Part shown: in pieces, positions 38,640 through 42,117 of the stretch
Position numbering within the stretch: position 1 is the stretch's first letter
Layout of the letters: each line of letters starts with the position of its first letter
Assembly: GCA_025352365.1 (NCBI GenBank)
Contig: JANXTO010000099.1
Location: 1-64,000 of the forward strand
Source: Undibacterium sp.
GTDB lineage: Bacteria; Pseudomonadota; Gammaproteobacteria; Burkholderiales; Burkholderiaceae_D
Direction: 5' to 3'
Length of the DNA stretch: 64,000 nt
Program-made: the position numbers and the translations under genes
The notes under the pieces: model-generated
The model's database searches: none
The model's input: the letters and a program-made list of their open reading frames with translations, nothing else
Told to the model about the DNA's origin: nothing

Positions 38640-39089
38640 TTATTTGGACTTAGCAGACGCCTGTGCGGCAAAGGTCACTTTCGCCAAACCAGCGATCCTC
38701 GCGGCCTCTAATACGTCCACCACTGACTGATGGGTAGTAGCCCGGTCAGCATTGATGATGATTACTGGATCAACTTTGGTACCCGTTTTACCTGCATCCA
38801 TCGCCGTGACTACTTGTTTTAAATCTTCTGCCAATGTCGCCGTATCCAAAAACGACACTGGCTGATTATTGATTTTGTAGCGACCTTGGGCATCAATCCC
38901 GATATCGATCTGATTCGGCTTGTCTTGCGCTTTTTCTGCATCTGCCGTCGGCAAGGTGATTTGCAATTCTGTAAAACGGCTATATGTCGTCGTGACCATC
39001 AAAAAAATCAAAATCACCAGCAACACGTCGATGAAAGGGATCAAATTGATTTCGGGGTCTTCTCGCCCCTGACCTTTGCGGAAATTCAT
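38640..39089 (-). CDS. exbD: ExbD/TolR biopolymer transport protein
   Basis: INLIPFIDVLLVILIFLMVTTTYS. Confidence 0.92.
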   Translation of the reverse strand: MNFRKGQGREDPEINLIPFIDVLLVILIFLMVTTTYSRFTELQITLPTADAEKAQDKPNQIDIGIDAQGRYKINNQPVSFLDTATLAEDLKQVVTAMDAGKTGTKVDPVIIINADRATTHQSVVDVLEAARIAGLAKVTFAAQASAKSK

Positions 39090-39694
39090 TATTTTCTCGC
39101 GCTGTGTACGGTATCAACAAATTTCACCGCCTGCTGCTCCATATCGACCACCAAGCTATCGACCAGTGCGCGGAAATGACGATAAAAAATCAAGGCCGGC
39201 ATCGCAATCATCAGGCCAAAACCGGTGTTGTACAAAGCCACAGAAATACCATGCGCTAATTGCGCTGGATTGGCGCCGGAGGCATTTTGCGAGCCAAAAA
39301 TCTCGATCATACCGACCACCGTGCCGAACAAGCCCATCAACGGCGCCAGCGATGCAATGGTGCCCAGCGTCGTCAAAAAGCGTTCTAATTCATGCGCTGC
39401 GCCACGACCAGCTTCTTCAATGGACTCTTTCATGACTTCACGGGGCGCGTTGACATTACGCAAACCAGCAGCCAGCACTTTTCCCAATGGAGAGTTATTG
39501 GACAATTGATCAATCACCTCCTGCTTGATTTTGCCAGCGTGATACACGCGGATCACTTCATCCAGCAAGGTGCGCGGCAAAATACGCTGACGGCGCAGGG
39601 ACAAAGTACGTTCGATAATTAATGCCAGCGCGATAATCGATGCGACTAACAAAAGGTAAATAGGCCAGCCAGCCGCTTGAATAATGGCAAACAA
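39089..39694 (-). CDS. exbB: ExbB/MotA/TolQ proton channel protein
   Basis: APLMGLFGTVVGMIEIFGSQNASGANPAQLAHGISVALYNTGFGLMIAMPALIFYRHF. Confidence 0.92.
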   Translation of the reverse strand: MFAIIQAAGWPIYLLLVASIIALALIIERTLSLRRQRILPRTLLDEVIRVYHAGKIKQEVIDQLSNNSPLGKVLAAGLRNVNAPREVMKESIEEAGRGAAHELERFLTTLGTIASLAPLMGLFGTVVGMIEIFGSQNASGANPAQLAHGISVALYNTGFGLMIAMPALIFYRHFRALVDSLVVDMEQQAVKFVDTVHSARK

Positions 39695-39854
39695 AAGTGA
39701 CTCCTTAGTCCTGGATTTGTAATGTGTGGAGGGAAAGCATCTAACCCAGCAATGTAGCGCGTTGTCTGCTTGCGAGCAAGTATCGTCGGCGAAAATCTTA
39801 AATTATCTTTTAGACAATCCGATAATGTAGTCCGATCGTGAAGTTAAGATAGTT

Positions 39855-40565
39855 TTGCACAAATTCTGTGTGCAAGATTGTGGATAACTCTGGGGTAGCT
39901 TGTTAAGCTTCTGATTTTAATCAGTTTTATCTTGCTGCTACAGAATTAAGCAGCGGCTTATCCGCAATTTTGATGGAGTAAGCAATCTCAAAACGAGATA
40001 AGTTCTGCACAGTTAATGTGGATAACATTGTGAACAAGGCAGGCAGATAACCCTAAGTGGCTGATTTATAAGCTAATTAACTTGCTGCTTAATTAACGGG
40101 CAAATTGATATTTTTGTGGGTAAACCACTTACTTATGCCCGGTTATCGTTCGTAAGCCGCAAAATCACAGATCGCACCCAGGTTCTGCACATATTTTGTG
40201 GATAAGACTGTGAAGAAGCTTTGTGAATAATGCCAAGTCCATGATTTTTATAGCGATTTAGAACATGCCTTTAAATTGAGCAAACAGGATAATAAGACCC
40301 TTTTTGCTTAAATTTTAAGCGTAACTGGATTTCGACATCTACTTATTCACAGGTAGCGACTATTTCTGCACACATTTTGTGGATAAGATTGTGCACAAAC
40401 CCGGTGATTGTCGCTAAGTCATTGTTTTCATTAAATATTAGCTTACTGCAAATAAAATAGGCAGCAGATCAAGCTAATTGATGACCAATCAAATCGCCAT
40501 ACTGTTTTTGTATAACAAGATATAAGTGCCCGCTGATACTGTGGATAAGTTTGTGAACAAGATCA
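39855..40565. promoter_or_regulatory. Intergenic DnaA-box repeat array (datA/DARS-like candidate)
   Basis: Perfect TGTGGATAA (complement of the TTATCCACA DnaA box) at 39879-39887, 40017-40025, 40197-40205, 40378-40386, 40540-40548, all same orientation; additional TTATCCGCA (39958-39966), TGTGAATAA (40222-40230), TTATTCACA (40343-40351). Confidence 0.75.
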
Positions 40566-40743
40566 AGAAGCTTCGCTAAAGTCCTTGATTTATAAGGATT
40601 TTCTTTTTTTCGCTGCAATTTACCAAGAATAATATTCTTTTTAAAATCAATGACTTAAGAAAGACTCGGGAAATATTTTTGACATCATTAACACTTAATG
40701 ACATTCTGATGACCAACCCTTCCCTCTGTGGACAGCTTTTGAC

Positions 40744-42117
40744 TTGCTCAGCTTTATGAATCCAGAATCCCGTACTGAAACTCCAATATTGACGCCATCT
40801 GTAATCACAGTATCTGCGCTAAACCAAGCAGTTGCGCAATTATTAGAACGAAACATCCCACTGACGTGGGTTTCCGGCGAAATATCTAATTTTACCCGCG
40901 CCACCTCTGGACATTGGTACTTCACGCTAAAAGACGCGCAGGCACAAGTGCGGGCAGTCATGTTCCGTGGCCGCTCGCAATACGCAGACTTTATGCCGCG
41001 CGAGGGCGATAAAGTTGAAGTCCGCGCATTGGTCGGTTTGTATGCCCCGCGCGGCGATTATCAAATAAATGTAGAAGCAATCCGTCGCGCCGGCGTGGGT
41101 AATTTGTACGAAGCTTTTTTGCAGTTAAGAGCACAACTGGCAAAAGAAGGTCTGTTTGATCCAGAGCATAAGCGCCCTATTCCGCATTTTGTTAAAACGA
41201 TAGGGATTGTCAGTAGTCCGCAAGCGGCGGCATTGCGCGATGTGTTGACCACGCTGCAACGACGCGCGCCGCATGTCAACATCATCCTTTACCCTACACC
41301 AGTGCAAGGCGAAGGTGCGGCAAATAAAATTGCACAAGCAATTGCTACCGCCTCGGCGCGTGAAGAATGTGATGTGCTGCTGGTCTGTCGCGGCGGCGGA
41401 AGTATTGAGGACTTATGGGCATTTAATGAAGAAATCGTGGCGCGAACAATCAGCCATTGCGCGATGCCTGTAATCAGCGGCGTGGGCCATGAAACTGACT
41501 TCACCATTGCCGATTTTGCCGCCGATGTACGTGCAGCTACGCCAACGGCAGCGGCTGAATTAGCGGCAGCACCGCGTGAAGACTGGCTAGAAACGTTGCT
41601 GCAATATCGCAATCATATGCAAAGAGGAATGCAAAGACAACTGGCGAATCAACACCAGAATGTCGATTGGCTGACACGGCGTTTAGTGAGTCCGATCAAC
41701 GCCATCAAAGCGAAAAAATTAGCTCTCGAAAGTGCTGTGCAACGCCTCAAATTTGCCAGCGCAATCCCACGCCAACAGGCGCATGCCAACTTGCATCAAT
41801 TACGAACCCGGCTTCAAGGCAATCGGCCAGATATGCAGGCATATCGGGCCAATTTGCAAGAATCACAACGCAGGTTGAGCACCACTTTTAAACATCAGAC
41901 GGATACTCAAAGAGTAGCGCTGGCGGGCTTAAAAGCGCAGCTAGAAATGCTCAATCCACAAAGAACACTGGAGCGCGGCTACGCTATTTTGAGTGACCGT
42001 AAAGGCAAACTAATACGCTCTGGTAAGGACTTGCATCCGAATAGCCAGATTGCAGTGCGATTGGCTGACGGGACGACTGAGATCAGCGTGAATGGCGTGC
42101 AACCAAGTCTGGATTAA
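40744..42117 (+). CDS. xseA: Exodeoxyribonuclease VII large subunit
   Basis: [70 protein letters not shown]. Confidence 0.96.

Follow-up and report, generated by a model that had tools for sequence, protein, structure and literature searches.

A tandem array of DnaA-box units with DARS-like geometry between an exbB-like gene and xseA in Undibacterium and its family

In Escherichia coli, the DnaA-reactivating loci DARS1 and DARS2 share a core in which DnaA box I is opposed to boxes II and III at a common spacing (PMC5742627). ADP-DnaA is bound head to head on boxes I and II (PMC8682772), and this contact between the opposed boxes leads to the release of ADP; DARS2 in addition needs IHF and Fis (PMC8682772, PMC5742627, PMC4245941). 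According to a paper from 2014, the DARS2 core occurs only in E. coli-related gamma-proteobacteria (PMC4245941), and a later review mentions both beta and gamma species, leaving the beta ones unnamed (PMC5742627). In the open-access literature we found nothing relevant on DARS in beta-proteobacteria, and no report of a DARS at xseA or priA or of DARS in a tandem array. Clusters of multiple DnaA boxes outside oriC are reported as datA-like repressors in Bacillus and Streptomyces (PMC5742627), and resemble the present locus in that respect.

The locus lies in a 64,000-nucleotide stretch of an Undibacterium chromosome, the whole of which was analysed and is referred to as the window. The gap between an exbB-like gene and xseA carries five DnaA-box repeats in tandem (Table 1). 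The first-pass annotation had listed five perfect TGTGGATAA boxes in one orientation at intervals of 138-181 bp, four of them followed by a weaker box at an offset of 12 bp and three preceded by TTCTGCACA, with further boxes between the units. All of these were recovered at the positions in the table, and the degenerate tandem character that had been read into the region was found independently by automated repeat detection. The naming of the flanks held for xseA, the start of which is ATG 40756 or possibly a TTG upstream (40744), and for exbB only as far as an ExbB/TolQ-like product with a score under the curated cut-offs of both models. Since TTATCCACA occurs 52 times in the genome (4.02 Mb in 362 contigs), about 0.009 copies are expected per 670 bp; five of the 52 fall inside the 670 bp of the array, which is thus beyond chance.

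Table 1. Features of the array and its flanks in window coordinates. Bit scores refer to R1, a profile built from Undibacterium units only.
Feature	Position	Strand	Remarks
exbB/tolQ-like gene	39089..39694	-	left neighbour
Unit 1	39853..39916	+	46.3 bits
Unit 1 box I	39853-39861		TTTTGCACA
Unit 1 box II	39867-39875		TGTGTGCAA, degenerate
Unit 1 box III	39879-39887		TGTGGATAA, perfect
Unit 1 IHF-like site	39904-39916	-	1 mismatch
Additional DnaA box	39958..39966	+	TTATCCGCA, 1 mismatch
Unit 2	40003..40066	+	62.2 bits
Unit 2 box I	40003-40011		TTCTGCACA
Unit 2 box II	40017-40025		TGTGGATAA
Unit 2 box III	40029-40037		TGTGAACAA
Unit 2 IHF-like site	40054-40066	-	
Unit 3	40183..40246	+	62.5 bits
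Unit 3 box I	40183-40191		TTCTGCACA
Unit 3 box II	40197-40205		TGTGGATAA
Unit 3 box III	40209-40217		TGTGAAGAA
Additional DnaA box	40222..40230	-	TTATTCACA, fits TTWTNCACA
Unit 3 IHF-like site	40234-40246	-	
Additional DnaA box	40343..40351	+	TTATTCACA
Unit 4	40364..40427	+	66.5 bits
Unit 4 box I	40364-40372		TTCTGCACA
Unit 4 box II	40378-40386		TGTGGATAA
Unit 4 box III	40390-40398		TGTGCACAA
Unit 4 IHF-like site	40415-40427	-	
Unit 5 (anchor unit)	40540..40590	+	36.6 bits; adjoins xseA
Unit 5 box I position	40526-40534		degenerate
Unit 5 box II	40540-40548		TGTGGATAA
Unit 5 box III	40552-40560		TGTGAACAA
Unit 5 IHF-like site	40578-40590	-	1 mismatch
IHF consensus	40645..40657	+	AATCAATGACTTA, perfect; at +105 relative to anchor-unit box II
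xseA	40756..42117	+	right neighbour; exodeoxyribonuclease VII large subunit (TIGR00237)

A stack of 150 box-centred units from the genus Undibacterium gave a consensus unit in which an inverted box I (TTNTGCACA) is followed after 5 bp by box II (TGTGGAYAA) and after a further 3 bp by box III (TGTGNANAA), box III having the orientation of box II and box I being opposed to both. The second conserved block that had been noticed downstream of the boxes, TAAGNNNNTGATTTTTA, begins at +37, counted from the first base of box II. Read on the opposite strand it is the IHF consensus WATCAANNNNTTR; the spacing is exact, and an A/T tract lies on the expected side. A search for IHF sites, proposed in the first-pass annotation as a check, returned an IHF-like site in every unit, at +37 or +38 from the box II start in the internal units, and a perfect site beyond the last one. 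The DARS arrangement (box I opposed, spacers of 5 and 3 bp) is exact in units 2-4, which have the complete three-box core. The perfect box of unit 1 is its box III, since a box I and a degenerate box II precede it, and unit 5 is without box I; the incomplete cores of these two units count against the DARS2-type reading set out below.

A composite pattern, TTNTNCACA-N5-TGTGGAYAA-N3-TGTGNANAA with up to three mismatches, matched five times in the genome, four times in the array and once between hemE and priA, and the reversed pattern used as a control in the same genome had no match. All close pairs of box-like 9-mers were also counted, without use of R1, in 91 distinct exbB-xseA spacers. The two most frequent arrangements were the inverted pair at 5 bp (n = 275; 0.10 in shuffled spacers) and the direct pair at 3 bp (n = 205; 0.00 in shuffled spacers); since relatives share ancestry, the counted pairs are not independent events, yet the spacing is clearly precise. 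The only other dense group of perfect boxes in the genome is made up of two divergent pairs of perfect TTATCCACA (four in all), with 158 bp within a pair and the repeat 741 bp on (G000:C113:9513-10420, L001).

E. coli DARS1, DARS2 and datA were scanned by the same box and IHF procedure. Both the DARS1 core (TTATCCACT, 5 bp, TGTGGATAA, 3 bp, TGTGTATTA) and the DARS2 core (TTATTCACC, 5 bp, TGTGGATAG, 3 bp, TGTGAAGAA) exhibit a three-box geometry identical to that of the array unit. When 400 kb of E. coli DNA, picked to contain the known DnaA sites, were scanned with strict geometry, DARS1 ranked first (2 mismatches to the composite pattern) and DARS2 second (3), followed by another DARS2 site (5) and then by datA and others (6). 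Against the same 400 kb the R1 profile scored polA at 19.1 bits, DARS2 at 17.0, DARS1 at 16.2 and datA at 13.3; the DARS2 and DARS1 matches span boxes I-III, whereas those to polA and datA cover boxes II-III only. Since the polA double box outscores DARS2, R1 matches outside the family are not all DARS, and only matches inspected for box I and for their neighbours were counted as DARS-like.

Like the array, DARS2 is intergenic, lies mid-replichore and has its IHF consensus on the box III side, but it has one core where the array has five, and its neighbours differ. DARS1 is likewise a single core, and no IHF consensus was found in the stretch of it that was scanned. Neither uvrB nor mutH, the genes downstream of DARS1 and DARS2, was found next to the sites described here, the neighbours of which are exbB-like/xseA or hemE/priA. 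In DARS2 the IHF scan gave two sites with 3 bp between them, matching the described IBS1 and IBS2 (PMC4245941). The plus-orientation site is at +95 in DARS2 and at +105 in the anchor unit, one helical turn farther. On the other hand, the internal site at +37/38 is without a counterpart in DARS2 (IBS at +79 and +95), which counts against the DARS2-type reading. Among relatives, an IHF consensus with at most one mismatch was present at +36 to +39 in 205 of 250 internal units, and one at +103 to +108 in 50 of 75 last units (46 perfect); at the latter position it occurred in only 4 of the 250 internal units, and in none of 200 shuffles. Single-copy cores from both loci, mostly of other families, had the plus-orientation consensus at +105/106 in 14 of 21 cases.

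A cluster of Fis sites such as FBS2-5 of DARS2 was not identified in the array. A Fis-like palindrome at +70 to +72 was found in 69 of 137, 68 of 165 and 8 of 13 units (background 1.8, 2.4 and 0.2), albeit with a loose motif. The element has the form GCC-A/T-GGC; roughly half of the units fit the loose Fis consensus there, the Y position often being A, and the Fis consensus scan also matches inside DnaA boxes. A Fis site in the units is therefore tentative, which counts against the DARS2-type reading. A palindrome, TTGCC-(A/T)-GGCA, lies at +70 to +86 of box II, between the core and the +105 IHF site, and is kept in several families at both exbB-xseA and hemE-priA sites; it may be a site for Fis or for another protein. 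As to the partner proteins, the genome encodes IhfA, IhfB and Hda (all above cut-offs), dnaA is also present, and a Fis family protein of 77 residues scores 121.9 against a cut-off of 122.

In a closed genome with 98% identity over the array, the array lies 1.34 Mb from dnaA, and in closed relatives the distance is usually about 0.28 genome lengths, as calculated from coordinates with partly rounded genome sizes. The values are 0.285 (G037), 0.27 (G022), 0.26 (G023), 0.28 (G015 and G017), 0.34 (G006) and about 0.21 (G038) in Undibacterium, and mostly 0.26-0.34 in other genera (0.28 for G193, G265 and G162; 0.34 for G266). The position varies, with 0.08 (G281) and 0.15 (G044) as exceptions among the closed relatives, and this counts against the DARS2-type reading. 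A mid-replichore array falls between DARS2 (0.21) and DARS1 (0.33) of E. coli, unlike datA (0.10), but the position serves as supporting evidence only, because synteny alone could preserve it. The same distance bears on whether the region is a second or the true replication origin. Dense DnaA boxes with IHF sites would suit an origin, and near dnaA there is only one perfect box; however, dnaA is 1.34 Mb off, no GC-skew switch occurs across the 64-kb window, the number of units is variable and single-core counterparts exist. An origin is extremely improbable here and was rejected on the dnaA distance and the GC skew, in line with the initial view that the region was not the origin.

The first-pass annotation had proposed a datA/DARS-type locus, and a datA-type locus would promote IHF-dependent hydrolysis of DnaA-bound ATP. 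The array shares with datA its nature as an intergenic cluster of DnaA boxes with IHF and its 3 bp double boxes; the five strong boxes in about 1 kb and the IHF sites between same-direction boxes of successive units also give a datA-like arrangement from unit to unit. The scan of datA, however, found the 3 bp double box and no opposed box at 5 bp, its IHF site is on the strong-box side, beyond box 2, the R1 match is limited to boxes II-III, and datA is nearer oriC (0.10 versus about 0.28), all of which makes this reading improbable. Of the two halves of the proposal the evidence favours DARS, because box geometry, IHF placement and mid-replichore location fit DARS and not datA.

The exbB-xseA region was also compared among relatives, another check named at the outset, and the array was present across the family. 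A DNA search matched the region in 41 of 44 Undibacterium genomes, and in the three without a match at the DNA level (G009, G014 and G031) the array was recovered by profile search; in the fetched Undibacterium loci retaining both flanks it lies between exbB and xseA. R1 matches were found in 294 of 296 genomes and 43 of 44 genera of the family, many genomes having 5-12, and in nearly all fetched loci of other genera exbB and/or xseA adjoin the array (L116 and L130-L132 are without exbB or xseA, and L129 is the hemE-priA site). The number of strict units per spacer ranges from 1 to 8 in genus and family; in other families, all 13 spacers had a single strict unit. Among 200 genomes sampled from the order, 155 had an R1 match, mostly 1-2 per genome; most of the inspected matches are at exbB-xseA or hemE-priA, some having neither pair in the fetched stretch, and two genomes (G317 and G492) have exactly one core at each. 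At the level of the class, 100 of 140 sampled genomes had R1 matches, nearly all of them isolated; these are bare profile matches that will include plain double boxes, and no array comparable to that at exbB-xseA was seen in these 140 genomes. None of the sequence-level outcomes that the first-pass annotation had named as telling against the candidate locus, such as a lack of conservation in relatives or comparable box density at many unrelated intergenic sites, occurred.

The hemE-priA site of the Undibacterium genome (G000:C266:3088-3122; L073:1501-1535) is a single core, ATATCCACA-5-TGTGGATAA-3-TGTGGACAA, with an IHF consensus about 106 bp off, and a core at this site is also found in several further families of the order. 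Upstream of hemE there is also a double box, TTATCCACA and CTATCCACA at a distance of 3 bp, without an opposed box I (G000:C266:4716-4736). Exact core-plus-IHF matches were seen in metagenome-assembled genomes labelled Bacillota (RGIG5631, L176) and Neisseriaceae (RGIG9985, L179), and the contig of the former may be mislabelled. Outside the family, paired profile matches 290-480 bp apart (G553:C122:3889-4423 and G458:C5:54836-55195) are possibly small independent arrays.

The anchor-type element with its +105 IHF spacing is common to the single-copy sites of other families, and in most relatives some 210 bp separate the last unit from xseA downstream of it. From these sequences we infer that the anchor unit may be the ancestral single site, and the units with IHF at +37/38 a later tandem expansion. 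Distances between units peak family-wide at 138, 149, 160, 170, 181, 192 and 203 bp, in steps of about 10.7 bp, with a best period of 10.55 bp in the genus (R = 0.77); a jitter test with unique distances only gave 0.024 for the genus, 0.006 for the rest of the family and 0.056 for both pooled. This suggests that the units sit on one face of the helix, although it falls short of proof because relatives share spacings.

The place of the last unit, in an intergenic region between divergent genes, could likewise be that of a DnaA-controlled regulatory region of xseA and/or the exbB-like gene, and DARS1 and DARS2 are also upstream of repair genes in E. coli (uvrB and mutH). Yet the number of units goes from 1 to 8 while the genes stay the same, a like core is found beside the unrelated hemE-priA pair, and promoter-like sites are no commoner than in shuffles. 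We therefore consider a purely regulatory region very improbable, and such a role would be compatible with a DARS role. Two further candidates were rejected: a promoter cluster, as promoter-like sites were not in excess over shuffles, and an RNA element, with no Rfam match to E 0.1 and no terminator found in the region.

The main rival is a titration array, in which high-affinity double boxes would retain DnaA until the sites are duplicated by replication, and nucleotides would not be exchanged. It could draw on about 14 boxes in the window array and on up to 8 strict units in relatives. E. coli DnaA prefers double boxes with 2-3 bp spacing (PMC11317965), and much of the titration in that species is due to datA, DARS1 and DARS2 (PMC12371093). 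Titration, however, needs neither a box I that is inverted and exactly 5 bp away nor exact IHF offsets, both of which are conserved in hundreds of units, and the same features recur in single-copy sites, where one core titrates little. We regard titration by itself as unlikely, and it could coexist with DARS; a locus with closely packed double DnaA boxes is bound to titrate DnaA in addition to any other role, a point which counts against the DARS2-type reading.

As judged from sequence, then, the region is probably a tandem-expanded, DARS2-type DnaA-reactivating locus. ADP-DnaA would bind head to head on boxes I and II of each unit, box III would add an adjacent DnaA protomer, and IHF would bend the DNA at +37/38 in internal units and at +105 in the anchor unit. 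ADP would then leave, and the apo-DnaA take up ATP again, such that ATP-DnaA would rise ahead of initiation. DnaA binding, IHF binding, nucleotide exchange and an effect on initiation timing are thus all predicted for the array. The xseA-side anchor unit, common to other families of the order, would have been multiplied in the Undibacterium family to give more reactivation capacity or cooperativity; whether several units act additively or cooperatively is a matter of speculation. More tentatively, and with slightly less than even confidence, we propose that a two-locus DARS system (exbB-xseA plus hemE-priA) is widespread in the order, with a helically phased tandem DARS-IHF array at xseA in the Undibacterium family, the copy number of which sets the amount or sharpness of DnaA recharging.

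Many families of a beta-proteobacterial order are now seen to have DARS-like cores, which recur at two loci and in one family form natural tandem arrays. DARS cores are repeatedly found paired with genes of replication or repair, each DARS or DARS-like locus being directly upstream of a gene of repair or replication restart (uvrB and mutH in E. coli; xseA and priA here). The variation in unit number amounts to a natural copy-number series with which to ask whether DnaA recharging, titration or both act in initiation timing, and the findings suggest that the array is a multi-copy switch timing chromosome replication.
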